Origin: Nesterenkonia sedimenti
GTDB taxonomy: Bacteria; Actinomycetota; Actinomycetes; Actinomycetales; Micrococcaceae
Direction: 5' to 3'
Assembly (NCBI RefSeq): GCF_012641515.1
Contig: NZ_JABAHY010000007.1
Location: forward strand, 88,934 to 152,933
Length of the DNA: 64,000 nt
Below the pieces are notes generated by a model. That model searched no databases. It was not told the origin of the DNA and was given only the letters and a program-made list of their open reading frames with translations. The position numbers were made by a program, and so were the translations under genes. The stretch's first letter is position 1. Every line of letters starts with the position of its first letter. Positions 1-5,358 of the stretch are shown here, one piece after another.

Positions 1-514
1 GTCAGTCCAGGATCTTATGGCCCACCGCGCCACGGACGCAGCAGCCCGAGCCGGGGCGCCAGCTTCTCGTGGCTACCGGTTCTTGCATCACGCGGTCGAT
101 GACCACTCCAGAGTGGTCTACTCGGAGATCCTCGATGATGAGCGAAAACACACCGCAGCCAGGTTCTGGGCCCGGGCGGAGGCCTTCTTCACCAGCATCG
201 GAGTCCAGGTCAGCGCGGTGATGACCGACAACGGTTCCTGCTACCGCTCAGGCGAATTCAAGAACGCCCTCGGTCCAGAGGTCAAGCACAAGAGAACCCG
301 ACCCCGCCGGCCACAGACCAACGGCAAAGTGGAGCGGTTCAATCGCACGTTGATGAACGAATGGGCCTACGCTCGCTCCTACATCAGTGAATCCTGCCGT
401 GCAGCTTCGTACGAGAATTTCCTGCACTACTACAATCACCACAGAACCCACACCGCGCCAGGAGGCGCTGTTCCCTCAGCTCGCGTTCACAACCTCACGG
501 GGAACTACAACTAG
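1..514 (+). mobile_element. IS481-type transposase, 3' part (cut by window start)
   Basis: This is the catalytic integrase-core (rve) half of a DDE transposase. The frame is open from base 2, so the N-terminal helix-turn-helix part and probably the first catalytic Asp lie outside the window. Counting from the ATG at 17, the second Asp sits in MTDNGS (D71) and the catalytic Glu in NGKVERFNRT (E106), a DD-35-E spacing. The C-terminal YNHHRTHTAPGG motif followed by a short tail is typical of the IS481 family. The frame ends in TAG at 512-514. Whether the element is intact depends on sequence to the left. It is the first of several IS relics here. Confidence 0.85.
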
Positions 515-1160: not shown

Positions 1161-1448
1161 AGCTCGCGTCCATCGGTAGACAATCTGATTCTTCGCAAAC
1201 CCATCATTCAACAGGGGTGAGCACCTTGACTCAACATACCTCCGCAATTAACCGCCAATGTGTCTTTAAAAGAATAGAGAAAGTGTCGTTTGATAGATTC
1301 CTTAAAGGAGAACCACATCGGGCTTATTTGCGAAGTGTCATCACCAGACCCCAGTCAGCTTCATCTAGGCGTGTGTCCATGACCTGCTTGCTTACCTCGT
1401 TCGTAAGGGCAGTATGGTGACCGCTCTTCTGAAGTAACGAAATTGCGC
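1161..1448. other. Non-coding stretch upstream of the ATP-grasp gene
   Basis: No convincing coding frame is seen here. The sequence is less GC-rich than the core genes downstream and probably carries the promoter of the ATP-grasp gene. I could not pick out a firm -35/-10 pair or an IS terminal repeat. Confidence 0.4.
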
Positions 1449-2570
1449 ATGACTATTGAAAAGCTTAGAATCAACAACCAGGACAGTGGTTCAGTAAATG
1501 ACGGATTTGTATTGGTTCGTTGGCGGACAGCGAAAGGTTGCTCAGTGGACCTCGCGGAAACACGCAAGCATCTGCGTGAACTCGGCATTAATGCTGGCCC
1601 CACGGCCACCTTAATTGCCAACCGGGCCATGAGTCGTGGAATCGCGGTGTCTTCCGATGAGCGTCGGCGGTTGACGCTTTATCTCGGGAAGCGGCGCATC
1701 TGGTTTGACGGCTCGCGATCGAATATCAATAAAGTGCTGGCTAGGCGCTGCACCCTCTATAAGGACGTGACGGCCCGGCTGCTTAGAAATTACGGTGTCA
1801 ATGCACCAGATAACATGGTGTTCGGTGCAGAACATGTTGGCCCAGCATGGCAGTGGGCTCTGTGCAAGTTGCCAGTGGTGGTGAAGCCTCCCAACGGAGG
1901 TAAGGGCGACCTGGTTCATGTTGGTATCGACGGGTTCGCTGAGTTCGAAAGTGCCTTCAACACGGTTGCAGAGTCTGTGACCGAGGTCCTTGTTGAGCGT
2001 TTCATCCCCGGAGAGGAACATCGAGTTCTGCTCATCTACGGAAAAGTCGCGGCGGCTCAACGGCGTATTGCAGCTCATATTCTAGGAAATGGCAGGTCAA
2101 CTATAAACAAACTTATACACAATAAAAATAAGCAGAGATTGAGTTCGAAAAATAAAATATATATAGAATCTCAAATAACTATCGACGACGCCGTGTTAAG
2201 CAAGTTAGGCTCCCAAGGGTTGAGTCTGGATTCTGTTCCTGCACGTGGTCAGAAAGTATGGTTGCGTTCAAACTCAAATGTCAGTAGTGGCGGTGAGGCC
2301 CATGATGCCACTGACGATATGACTCCTGGAGAAATAGCGATGGCAGAAAACGTTGCTCGCGCTATCCCAGGTTTGCGTGTCGCGGGTCTCGACATGCTAT
2401 TACCCAGGGATGGCAATGGGAGCGAGCCACACGTTTTAGAAGTCAACAGTAGCCCGCTCATTACCGGTCATCACTACCCCTGGGCCGGTCCCAGCAGAGA
2501 TGTTGCCGCAATGCTGGTAGAAGCCATGTTTCCGGCAGCCACAAGCGATTCGTCAGAAACAAGACGCTAG
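1449..2570 (+). CDS. Orphan ATP-grasp ligase (cyanophycin-synthetase-like core)
   Basis: A protein of about 373 residues with a complete ATP-grasp fold resembling the central ligase domain of cyanophycin synthetase and the C-terminal ligase half of GshF-type enzymes. In order: an N-terminal domain to about residue 95; the ATP-grasp entry with VVVKPPNGGKG near 143-153; ERFIPGEEHRVL near 183-194; SVPARGQKVWLR and SNVSSGGEAHDATDD near 262-290; and the metal-binding LEVNSSP near 330-336. Such enzymes join a carboxylate to an amine through an acyl phosphate. Mur-ligase and GshA-like domains are absent, so it is neither CphA nor GshF. The start is uncertain: a TTG at 1443 and the ATG at 1449 are in frame, both with weak ribosome-binding sites. 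Bases 2096-2185 are strikingly AT-rich (codons AAA, ATA, AAT), unlike the core genes, and IS relics flank it, so it was probably acquired by transfer. The substrate is unknown. Confidence 0.75.
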   Translation: MTIEKLRINNQDSGSVNDGFVLVRWRTAKGCSVDLAETRKHLRELGINAGPTATLIANRAMSRGIAVSSDERRRLTLYLGKRRIWFDGSRSNINKVLARRCTLYKDVTARLLRNYGVNAPDNMVFGAEHVGPAWQWALCKLPVVVKPPNGGKGDLVHVGIDGFAEFESAFNTVAESVTEVLVERFIPGEEHRVLLIYGKVAAAQRRIAAHILGNGRSTINKLIHNKNKQRLSSKNKIYIESQITIDDAVLSKLGSQGLSLDSVPARGQKVWLRSNSNVSSGGEAHDATDDMTPGEIAMAENVARAIPGLRVAGLDMLLPRDGNGSEPHVLEVNSSPLITGHHYPWAGPSRDVAAMLVEAMFPAATSDSSETRR

Positions 2571-2635
2571 TCCGGGAGGGGCGGCTGGCCCTGCTCGCCG
2601 TGAGCAGTCGGGTTGGCTGAGTCGTGGCACAGCGT

Positions 2636-3077
2636 TCAAGCTTCAGCCAAAGCGTCAGTGATGACGCCGAGACCCTCAATGGGGAGATCGTGGCTGGCAA
2701 TGAGCGGGTAGGGGAGAAGGCGGACAACATGGCAATAGGTTCCGCAGGTCACAGTGGTCGTACCTGACTGACCGGCTGCCGACGCCACAGCCGAGGTCAA
2801 TGGCGCGTCGAGACCTTCTGTCGCAGGATCCAAAAGTTCAAAAGCCAGCATTGCTCCGCGGTCCCGTATATCCCATACTCGCGGATCACTTCTCTGAACC
2901 TCTTCAAGGCGTTCGCGGACAAGGTCTTCGACTCATAGGGCGGCGTGATCTAGTTTCTGTAAACCAGCGGCCGGTGCGGGCGAAGCCTGTCTGCACCTCA
3001 TCGGCGATGAAGACGACGCCGTTTTCCCGCCACCAATGAACAATTTGCTTGAAGAACCCTGGAACGGCTATTACCCG
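2636..3077 (-). pseudogene. gabT: Decayed 4-aminobutyrate aminotransferase
   Basis: On the minus strand, GabT-like sequence begins at about 3077 (VPGFFKQIVHWW, then GVVFIADEVQTGFARTGRWF, which holds the PLP-ring-binding Asp). It jumps directly to LVRERLEEVQRSDPRVWDIRDRGAMLAF and ends MLAFELLDPATEG through LTCGTY-like and IRLLP-like motifs to ITDALAEA at 2636. The middle of the enzyme, including the segment with the PLP Schiff-base lysine, is deleted, and the frame changes. The 5' half is missing where an ISL3 relic begins. It is a remnant of a class III aminotransferase that would convert GABA to succinate semialdehyde, and it cannot be active. Confidence 0.75.
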
Positions 3078-3089
3078 TGGAGCGTGGAG

Positions 3090-3746
3090 TCTTTGTCGGT
3101 AGGAAATCCTTTGGTGTCGGCATGTGTGCCTGACGCTGGTGCCTAGGATACGTGATTGATAGTTCCTATGGTTGCGGAACCCGCGATCGGCGCGTTTGAT
3201 GTGCTTGATCGCGGTATTGGCGGCTTCAGTATGTCCATTGTTGATTCGGGTGCGCACGAAGACTTTGATCTCGGTCCACCACTTCTTGACGGTGGCCGCC
3301 ATCTTGTCTGTCTCTACCATGTCAGCGGCTGCCACGGTCATCTAGAAGTCAATTCGGGCGTTCTGGACCGCTGAGATGTCCTTGGCGGCCAGCATGGCCC
3401 GCAGGCGCTGTTTGACCGCCCAGGGTGCAGGGACCACCTCGAAGTCGGCATCATCGAGGACTTCTTCTAGCCGGTACAGCCCAGCCTCGGTGAGTGAGTC
3501 GATCTCCGGCTCTTGACAGCAGCATGCGGTGGGTCGTCCACATTGGAGCGCTGTTTCCTCATCACTGACGACCATGCTGCTGCCTTTATCGGTGGAGTGC
3601 TCCTGATCGAGGTCGCCAATGTGGTGCCGGAAAGTGACGTCGAACAGCTCCTCCAGTTCTCTGAGATCGGGAGCCCACAGCCGCCCTGCGGACCCGGGCT
3701 TCATGGGCTGGGGTGAGGGGGTGCTGGGCGTCACCTGCTGATGCAC
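3090..3746 (-). pseudogene. ISL3-family transposase, C-terminal relic with in-frame TAG
   Basis: Two adjoining minus-strand pieces are in the same frame and separated only by a TAG at 3342-3344. The first carries LYRLEEVLDDADFEVV and APWAVKQRLRAMLAAKD. The second carries KKWWTEIKVFVRTRINNGH and HTEAANTAIKHIKRADRGFR followed by NHRNYQSRIL, the hallmark C-terminus of ISL3 transposases. The region upstream of about 3490 no longer resembles the family clearly. At about 3077-3125 the reading passes directly into gabT sequence, so the element lies inside or beside that broken gene. It is not functional as it stands. Confidence 0.7.
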
Positions 3747-3993: not shown

Positions 3994-5358
3994 TCACGTT
4001 CCTCGAACGATGTCGCGGAGCCGTTCCAAGCGTTCGCTGACGCTGCGCTCATAACCACTCTGGGTGGGGGAGTAGTAGTCAGTGCCGACCAGATCATCGG
4101 GTGGATACTGCTGGGCAGCGACATGATGAGGCGCATCATGGGCGTAGATATAACCCTTGCCATGCCCGAGGCGATGTGACCCTGAATAATGAGCATCACG
4201 CAGATGCGGCGGCACCGGCCCGCCCTTGCCGGCACGAACATCAGCGATTGCCGCATCCAGGGCCTTATAGGAAGCATTCGACTTCGGGGCCGTGGCAATA
4301 TGCACGGTCGCCTGGGCCAGAATGATCCGGCCCTCAGGCATCCCGATCAGCTGCACAGCCTGAGCCGCGGCCACAGCGGTCTGCAGGGCACTGGGGTCAG
4401 CCATGGCCACCTCCTCGCTGGCTGCAATCACCAGGCGCCGGGCAATGAACCGCGGGTCCTCCCCGGCAACGATCATCTTCGCCAGATAGTGCAGGGCCGC
4501 ATCAACATCGGAGCCGCGCAGGGATTTGATGAAGGCCGAGATGATGTCATAGTGCTGATCGCCATCCTTGTCATACCTCTGCACGGCGAAATCGGCTGCC
4601 TGCTCGGCATCGGCTGAGGTGATCTCGGCAGAATCCCGCCCGGCCGCCACTGCCGCAGCTGCCTCCAGAGTGGTCAGCACTCGGCGGGCATCACCTCCGG
4701 AGACCCGCAGAATATGATCTCGGGCGTCGTCGTCGAGGGTGAACTGATCAGCCAAGCCCCTGGAATCATGGAGTGAACGGTCGATGAGCTCACCGAGATC
4801 CTCACTGGTCAAGGATGTCAACGTCAGCAGGAGCGATCGGGACAGCAGCGGGGCCACCACACTGAAGGACGGGTTCTCAGTGGTCGCTGCCACCAGGATT
4901 ACCCACCCGTTCTCAACACCTGGTAGCAGCGCATCCTGCTGAGCCTTATTGAACCGGTGAATCTCATCGAGGAACAGTACGGTGGTGATACCCCGCAGAT
5001 CCCGATCATCCAGGGCCTTATCCATCACCTGCCGGACGTCTTTGACTCCGGCACGGATGGCCGAGAGTTCCACGAATTTCCTCGAGCCGCCGCGGGCGAT
5101 CACATGGGCGATTGTCGTTTTACCCGTACCGGGAGGACCATAGAGGATCACCGAACTGGGTCCGGCCGGCCCCTTCGCGCCCTCGGCCAGAACCCGCAGG
5201 GGAGACCCCTCTTTCAGCAGATGCTTCTGCCCCACGATCTCCTCGATGGAACGTGGCCGCATCCGCACAGCCAAGGGGGTATGACGACGACGGCCACCGG
5301 AAGATTCAGCGGCGTCGTCGTAGTCTTCCTCAGGGGTTGAGAAGAGGTCACCAGTCAC
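3994..5358 (-). CDS. rarA: Replication-associated recombination protein A (AAA+ ATPase)
   Basis: RarA (MgsA) is a clamp-loader-like AAA+ ATPase that acts at stalled or gapped replication forks with SSB. The 454-residue length is normal. Walker A is GPPGTGKTT at 74-82, Walker B ends in [11 protein letters not shown] at 127-137, and the sensor-1 stretch AATTENPSF is at 157-165. The C-terminal half carries the RarA tetramerisation region with [18 protein letters not shown] and later [19 protein letters not shown]. The ATG start gives the expected MTGDLFS beginning. It lies alone between a lipoprotein gene upstream and a possible small membrane protein downstream, all on the minus strand. In related genomes rarA usually follows hisS-aspS; here about 5 kb of accessory and broken genes separate them. 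Confidence 0.95.

Follow-up and report, generated by a model that had tools for sequence, protein, structure and literature searches.

The window analyzed here is a 64,000-nucleotide stretch of Nesterenkonia sedimenti DNA (contig NZ_JABAHY010000007.1, positions 88,934 to 152,933), and near its left end lies the gene of interest, an intact open frame (1443/1449 to 2570, plus strand) coding for an ATP-grasp ligase whose nearest relative in family and structure searches is the G domain of cyanophycin synthetase (CphA). An earlier note on this DNA described an intact cyanophycin-synthetase-like ATP-grasp enzyme standing alone among insertion sequence (IS) fragments; the open frame and the family matches agree with the first part, and locally the ligase does lie alone beside IS sequence. 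The features of the region are as follows.

The ligase gene and its surroundings

2 to 514, plus strand: transposase sequence with an rve/rve_3 integrase core, truncated at the edge of the window
1276 to 1544, plus strand: region upstream of the ligase, collinear with N. salmonea (locus L041, 7905 onward)
1532 to 1537, plus strand: Shine-Dalgarno-like GAAAGG, seven bases before GTG 1545
1545 to 2570, plus strand: stand-alone, CphA-G-domain-like ATP-grasp ligase, 341 residues, GTG start
2096 to 2185, plus strand: AT-rich coding stretch, 23% GC versus 52% for the ligase gene
2639 to 3074, minus strand: remnant of a gabT-like class III aminotransferase gene (residues 228 to 265 and 331 to 436 of 436)
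3147 to 3329, minus strand: ISL3-type transposase fragment (residues 5 to 65 of the open reading frame 2904 to 3341)

The ligase most likely starts at GTG 1545, giving a protein of 341 residues, and not at position 1449 as drawn in the earlier note. The 16-base sequence at this start (AAGGTTGCTCAGTGGA) is invariant in the three species compared (the window, N. salmonea, and N. haasae), the N. salmonea match to residues 1 to 373 contains a TGA upstream of the codon matching GTG 1545, and the N. haasae frame opens at that codon. The start at 1449 was rejected on these grounds, and residues 1 to 32 of the longer protein are therefore probably noncoding. N. salmonea has an additional GTG five codons upstream of the one matching 1545. 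With the GTG 1545 start, the N-terminal region singled out previously (residues 1 to 95) is where the G domain begins in the AlphaFold2 prediction.

Transposase sequence flanks the ligase on both sides (2 to 514 and approximately 3147 to 3329), and the gabT-like remnant is convergent with it, as is the case in N. salmonea and N. haasae. Between positions 1 and 3990 no other intact known gene was recognized. The claim that everything around the ligase has decayed does not extend to the frame at 3994 to 5358, which we read as rarA; it is unbroken, and 29 of 30 Nesterenkonia genomes conserve it. There is also a perfect 57-base direct repeat at transposase sequence, with one copy at window positions 1 to 57 and the other at L040 9876 to 9932, one base before the window start.

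Window positions 1276 to 2960 and 2961 to 3062 are collinear with N. salmonea, at 83.7% and 90.2% identity, and positions 1520 to 2957 and 2961 to 3063 are collinear with N. haasae; in both species the ligase converges on a class III aminotransferase gene (Pfam E value 1.1e-129 for the N. salmonea copy). The ligase is 89% identical to its N. salmonea counterpart, and the protein of 3994 to 5358 is 84% identical. Ratios of nonsynonymous to synonymous substitution (dN/dS) are 0.055/0.490 = 0.11 (N. salmonea) and 0.165/1.867 = 0.09 (N. haasae) by NG86, and 0.061/0.373 = 0.16 and 0.162/1.915 = 0.08, respectively, by YN00. These ratios (0.08 to 0.16) indicate that the ligase is under purifying selection, in line with the suggestion that selection has kept the frame open. 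The stretch 2096 to 2185 is AT-rich, as had been pointed out, but the same stretch has a GC content of 22% in N. salmonea and 29% in N. haasae, where the gene is collinear and has the same gabT-like neighbor; recent transfer was rejected as an explanation of the composition, because the AT-rich stretch and low GC are common to the two sister species. Given the collinearity, the shared gabT-like neighbor, the shared AT-rich stretch, and the dN/dS values, the gene is older than the split of N. sedimenti, N. salmonea, and N. haasae, with its flanks broken later by IS elements, and the idea of a recent arrival does not hold.

Family, predicted fold, and active site

In Pfam, the frame 1449 to 2570 hits RimK and ATP-grasp_3; its hit to cyanophycin synthetase in NCBIfam is far stronger (E value 2.4e-67), although at 227.8 bits against a cutoff of 877. 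The CphA1 model TIGR02068 (224.3 versus 850 bits), the GshF model (157.7 versus 425), and the RimK family model TIGR00768 (33.5 versus 143.4) also score under their cutoffs, whereas the RimK domain PF08443 is over its gathering cutoff (28.3 versus 21). Pfam, NCBIfam, and the predicted model show a single ATP-grasp domain in the 341 residues and no Mur-ligase part, N domain, or GshA part (the last by Pfam), as the earlier note had read for the Mur and GshA parts. The AlphaFold2 model (predicted local distance difference test [pLDDT] 91.8, predicted template modeling score 0.87) has its best fold match in TeCphA1 (7wae_A; Z score 32.0 over 316 residues, 2.9 Å, 32% identity), with residues 7 to 339 aligned to TeCphA1 158 to 489, and it joins a predicted ATP-grasp fold to a pair of lysines for ATP and to Asp/Glu residues for Mg2+, as expected of the ATP-grasp carboxylate-amine ligase superfamily.

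The stand-alone family comprises clades A and B and is present in 16 of 30 Nesterenkonia genomes (E ≤ 1e-60), with clade A (identity of at least 52%), to which the window ligase belongs, in 10 and clade B (40 to 43%) in 6. Among 295 genomes drawn at the family level the two clades are found in 14, all of them Nesterenkonia (1 of 32 genera), and 394 genomes drawn from the class yielded three further close members (G402, G483, and G526; E ≤ 1.2e-122) from a single genus of another family, designated f27. Among 396 genomes drawn from the phylum, only the window's own genome matched at E ≤ 1e-70; the three f27 members evidently lay outside that draw, as they would have scored within this threshold. 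The phylogeny against CphA proposed in the earlier note gives separate, supported clades for clade A (99/93, 15 rows), A plus B (100/99, 21 rows), and CphA (100/97, 22 rows) in a tree of 97 domains, from which 5 of 102 rows, those under 305 residues, had been removed beforehand; the CphA rows were named from their length and from a P-loop motif downstream of the ATP-grasp domain, rather than by a family search. By this tree, the stand-alone family is distinct from CphA.

Several observations concern individual family members. Clade B ligases at three loci (L053, L054, and L055, in three genomes) are downstream of sdh-like genes in the same direction, the sdh names being read from sequence starts, and clade A paralogues at L043, L044, L045, L047, and L014 are positioned just upstream of members of one gene family, of which that at L043 is a phosphoenolpyruvate carboxykinase (PEPCK) by Pfam. 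One clade A match (G015:C1:177570-178595; L035 and L050) has an internal stop, in an assembly of 62% completeness.

Twelve TeCphA1 positions were compared across the clade A rows (up to 16 per position), using the residue roles described in PMC9427784. Residues K220, K261, R309, R323, and N394 (TeCphA1 numbering) are retained in 16 of 16 rows, and D431 and E450 in all 15 rows reaching them, such that the positions for ATP, Mg2+, and the acyl phosphate are conserved. Three other CphA residues are never retained: H267 (0/16) is replaced by K, M, E, G, or Q; E215 (0/16), which contacts the primer's Arg in TeCphA1, is Arg in all 16 rows; and R458 (0/15), which contacts the Asp alpha-carboxylate, is Thr, Ser, or Ile in all 15 (contacts as given in PMC9427784). 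Additionally, G456 is substituted by Met or Leu, and at the S396 position 6 of the 16 rows have Ser and the other 10 have His. The changes at H267, E215, and R458 may point to an acceptor unlike that of CphA, perhaps an acidic one. From family, predicted fold, and retained residues, the protein is very likely an ATP-dependent carboxylate-amine ligase, and probably a stand-alone, ADP-forming one made of a single CphA-type G domain. The proposal that it may join an amino acid or short peptide to some acceptor is supported as to the type of enzyme and its lack of the usual partners. PADLOC gave no defense match for the three proteins tried.

Multi-ATP-grasp clusters and a candidate pathway

Two gene clusters rich in further CphA-like ATP-grasp genes are located on the same contig outside the window (G000:C62, 6.4 to 13.2 kb and 17.9 to 31.7 kb; L036 6443-13247, and L036 17914 to L037 11701). 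They also code for an enolase-like/ATP-grasp/acylphosphatase-like protein and a companion, M1, together with major facilitator superfamily (MFS) and ABC-2 transporters, an asparagine-synthase-like protein, and a weakly glycosyltransferase-like protein; the cluster families F6 and F6b have no Pfam match. Related clusters add CapA (PGA_cap) fusions, Asp/Glu racemase, UDP-sugar dehydrogenase, glycosyltransferases, and ATPgrasp_ST. The M1 model is of low confidence (pLDDT 72.1) and matches CphA-type ATP-grasp folds, suggesting that M1 is a diverged ATP-grasp protein. An ATP-grasp domain of one cluster, in an enolase-CapA-ATP-grasp fusion (L088), branches beside clades A and B at 97/87, on a very long branch.

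M1 serves as a marker of these clusters and is present in 14 of 30 Nesterenkonia genomes; the class draw of 394 genomes has it in 8 (2 Nesterenkonia and 6 of family f27); two of the matches are weak or partial (G015, E value 1.8e-17; G028, 1.4e-12), and the counts leave out the N. natronophila locus (L014). All 10 Nesterenkonia genomes with clade A carry M1 (Fisher P = 3.3e-5, ignoring phylogeny), and the overlap without the window's genome is 9 of 9 (P = 7e-5, calculated by hand). By position the ligase is an orphan; its clade co-occurs with a type of cluster that in this genome shares the ligase's contig, at a distance of about 60 kb. Among the neighbors of its homologues, whose survey the earlier note had proposed, G402 and G526 have the clade A gene within a multi-ATP-grasp cluster, where a CapA-ATP-grasp fusion runs in the same direction. 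In G003 the clade A gene and the MFS gene of the cluster are convergent, with 54 bases between them.

Several points weigh against this association. M1 was chosen once the linkage was known, and both query sequences came from the window's genome. When corrected for phylogeny, the co-occurrence is not significant, with 3 independent pairs on the starred branches and a median P of 0.5 (on average, 1.6 pairs in the same direction, 0 opposite, and 1.4 with no difference), in an underpowered test whose species tree is from one protein (RarA) in 29 of 30 genomes, with that of G015 partial. With only three independent pairs, common ancestry could explain the co-occurrence. M1 is found without clade A in 4 of the 14 Nesterenkonia genomes that have it and in 3 of 6 f27 genomes (scoring five candidates per genome), and only one of the six genomes with the sister clade B has M1. 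Two other cluster components fail to track the ligase: the F6 marker occurs in 6 of 30 Nesterenkonia genomes (clade A is present in 4 of these 6), and CapA in 23 of 30, including 11 of 14 with and 12 of 16 without M1. No cluster gene is seen near the clade A gene of G483, and 9 of the 10 clade A Nesterenkonia genomes have no second such ATP-grasp gene beside the ligase in the loci viewed, some of which end at contig ends; the neighbors seen there are gabT-like, PEPCK, or other genes. The link between ligase and clusters is suggestive.

We favor, with a probability of roughly 40%, the interpretation that the ligase belongs, as a detached amino acid or peptide ligase, to the pathway that the multi-ATP-grasp clusters encode. 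With ATP and Mg2+, it would turn the carboxylate group of its substrate, an amino acid or short peptide, into an acyl phosphate and couple this to an amine, a single detached step in that pathway. The family, predicted fold, ATP/Mg and acyl-phosphate residues, selection, synteny, and co-occurrence counts are computed results; the reaction, substrates, pathway membership, and product are inferred. The product might, less certainly, be an acidic surface polymer (Glu/Asp-type and partly epimerized) made of peptide or peptide-glycan, a guess based on the cluster content and on PgsB/CapB (TIGR04012), which is over its cutoff in none of 30 Nesterenkonia genomes (7 have weak matches below it) and in 1 of 14 control genomes. 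The broader proposal that Nesterenkonia and family f27 make an acidic surface polymer without a Mur-type PgsB/CapB, using CphA-like ATP-grasp ligases, an enolase-type epimerase, acylphosphatase, CapA, and racemase, with the window ligase as a detached member, is considerably more doubtful; of the two families, the PgsB/CapB search covered Nesterenkonia.

Alternative roles and comparison with known systems

The failure of F6 and CapA to track the ligase lowers the odds of the cluster pathway and of the broader polymer proposal, and raises those of a role in central metabolism, independent of the clusters. Such a role is unlikely overall, but it is the strongest of the competitors, with recurring neighbors that are gabT-like (three species, one as a remnant), of the PEPCK family (five loci), or sdh-like before clade B (three loci); the neighbor differs between subclades, however, and the gabT-like gene is broken in the window where the ligase is retained. 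Lower odds go to a peptidoglycan cross-bridge ligase that would attach Gly, Glu, or D-Asp to the Lys of the stem, in the manner of AslFm, the D-Asp ligase of enterococci. The Asp/Glu racemase genes of some clusters would suit it, but every strain should need its bridge, whereas clade A is in 10 and A plus B in 16 of 30 Nesterenkonia genomes, and no D-Asp ligase is among the 16 NCBIfam families listed for the protein.

Two further roles seem improbable to a similar degree. A ligase making osmolyte dipeptides, comparable to N-acetylglutaminylglutamine synthetase in its ATP-grasp half, would accord with the TIGR03103 match (residues 50 to 364, E value 6.5e-42), with the asparagine-synthase-like genes of the clusters, and with the chiefly saline habitats reported for Nesterenkonia (PMC5288335); the match reaches 143.8 bits against a cutoff of 569, there is no GNAT part, and the MFS and ABC-2 transporter genes would fit export better. 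A RimK- or graspetide-like ligase modifying a protein, or a ribosomally synthesized and post-translationally modified peptide, at a peptide tail is in keeping with the PF08443 score and with RimK structures matching the model at Z scores of 19 to 20, but CphA1 (32.0) and GshF (30.4) match better, and, as a weaker point, a word search for cyanophycin in the accessible text of a graspetide survey (PMC8939145) gave nothing. The least credible reading makes the gene a CphA relic or a decaying passenger of IS elements: transposase sequence is present on both sides and the G015 match holds a stop, but the dN/dS values, the retained active-site residues, the separate clade, and the collinearity in sister species speak against it, and the CphA relic was rejected by the tree and by the pattern of kept and changed residues.

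If the link between ligase and clusters holds, the clusters would be a candidate gene set for a gap in Bacillus halodurans, an alkaliphile with wall poly-glutamate and neither a pgs nor a cap operon, for which a novel ATP-grasp synthetase has been suggested (PMC3815933, a review), and the single-domain ligase would be a simple entry point for assaying this chemistry. Among the open-licence papers listed in literature searches, no title or abstract on this ligase family or cluster was found.

Among characterized enzymes, CphA1 (TIGR02068; TeCphA1 structures 7wac to 7waf) shares with the ligase the ATP-grasp G-domain fold, the ATP/Mg ligands, and R309, R323, and N394; the ligase differs in lacking the N and Mur domains, in forming its own clade, and in the replacement of His267, Glu215, and Arg458. 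The ATP-grasp module of GshF (3ln6 and 3ln7) is similar in fold (3ln6, Z score 30.4 over 318 residues) and likewise lacks the CphA His267 (PMC9427784), but identity is 24% and the ligase has no GshA part. CphA2 (7ta5 and 8fxh/8fxi) has a CphA-like G domain (Z scores of 18.1 to 22.7), although in chains of 629 to 642 residues versus 341. N-acetylglutaminylglutamine synthetase (TIGR03103) matches in its ATP-grasp half, far under the cutoff, and the ligase is without the GNAT half. The PgsBCA/CapBCA systems use a Mur-type PgsB/CapB ligase in contrast to the ATP-grasp ligases described here, but they share a possible product class and the CapA (PGA_cap) domains present in the co-occurring clusters.
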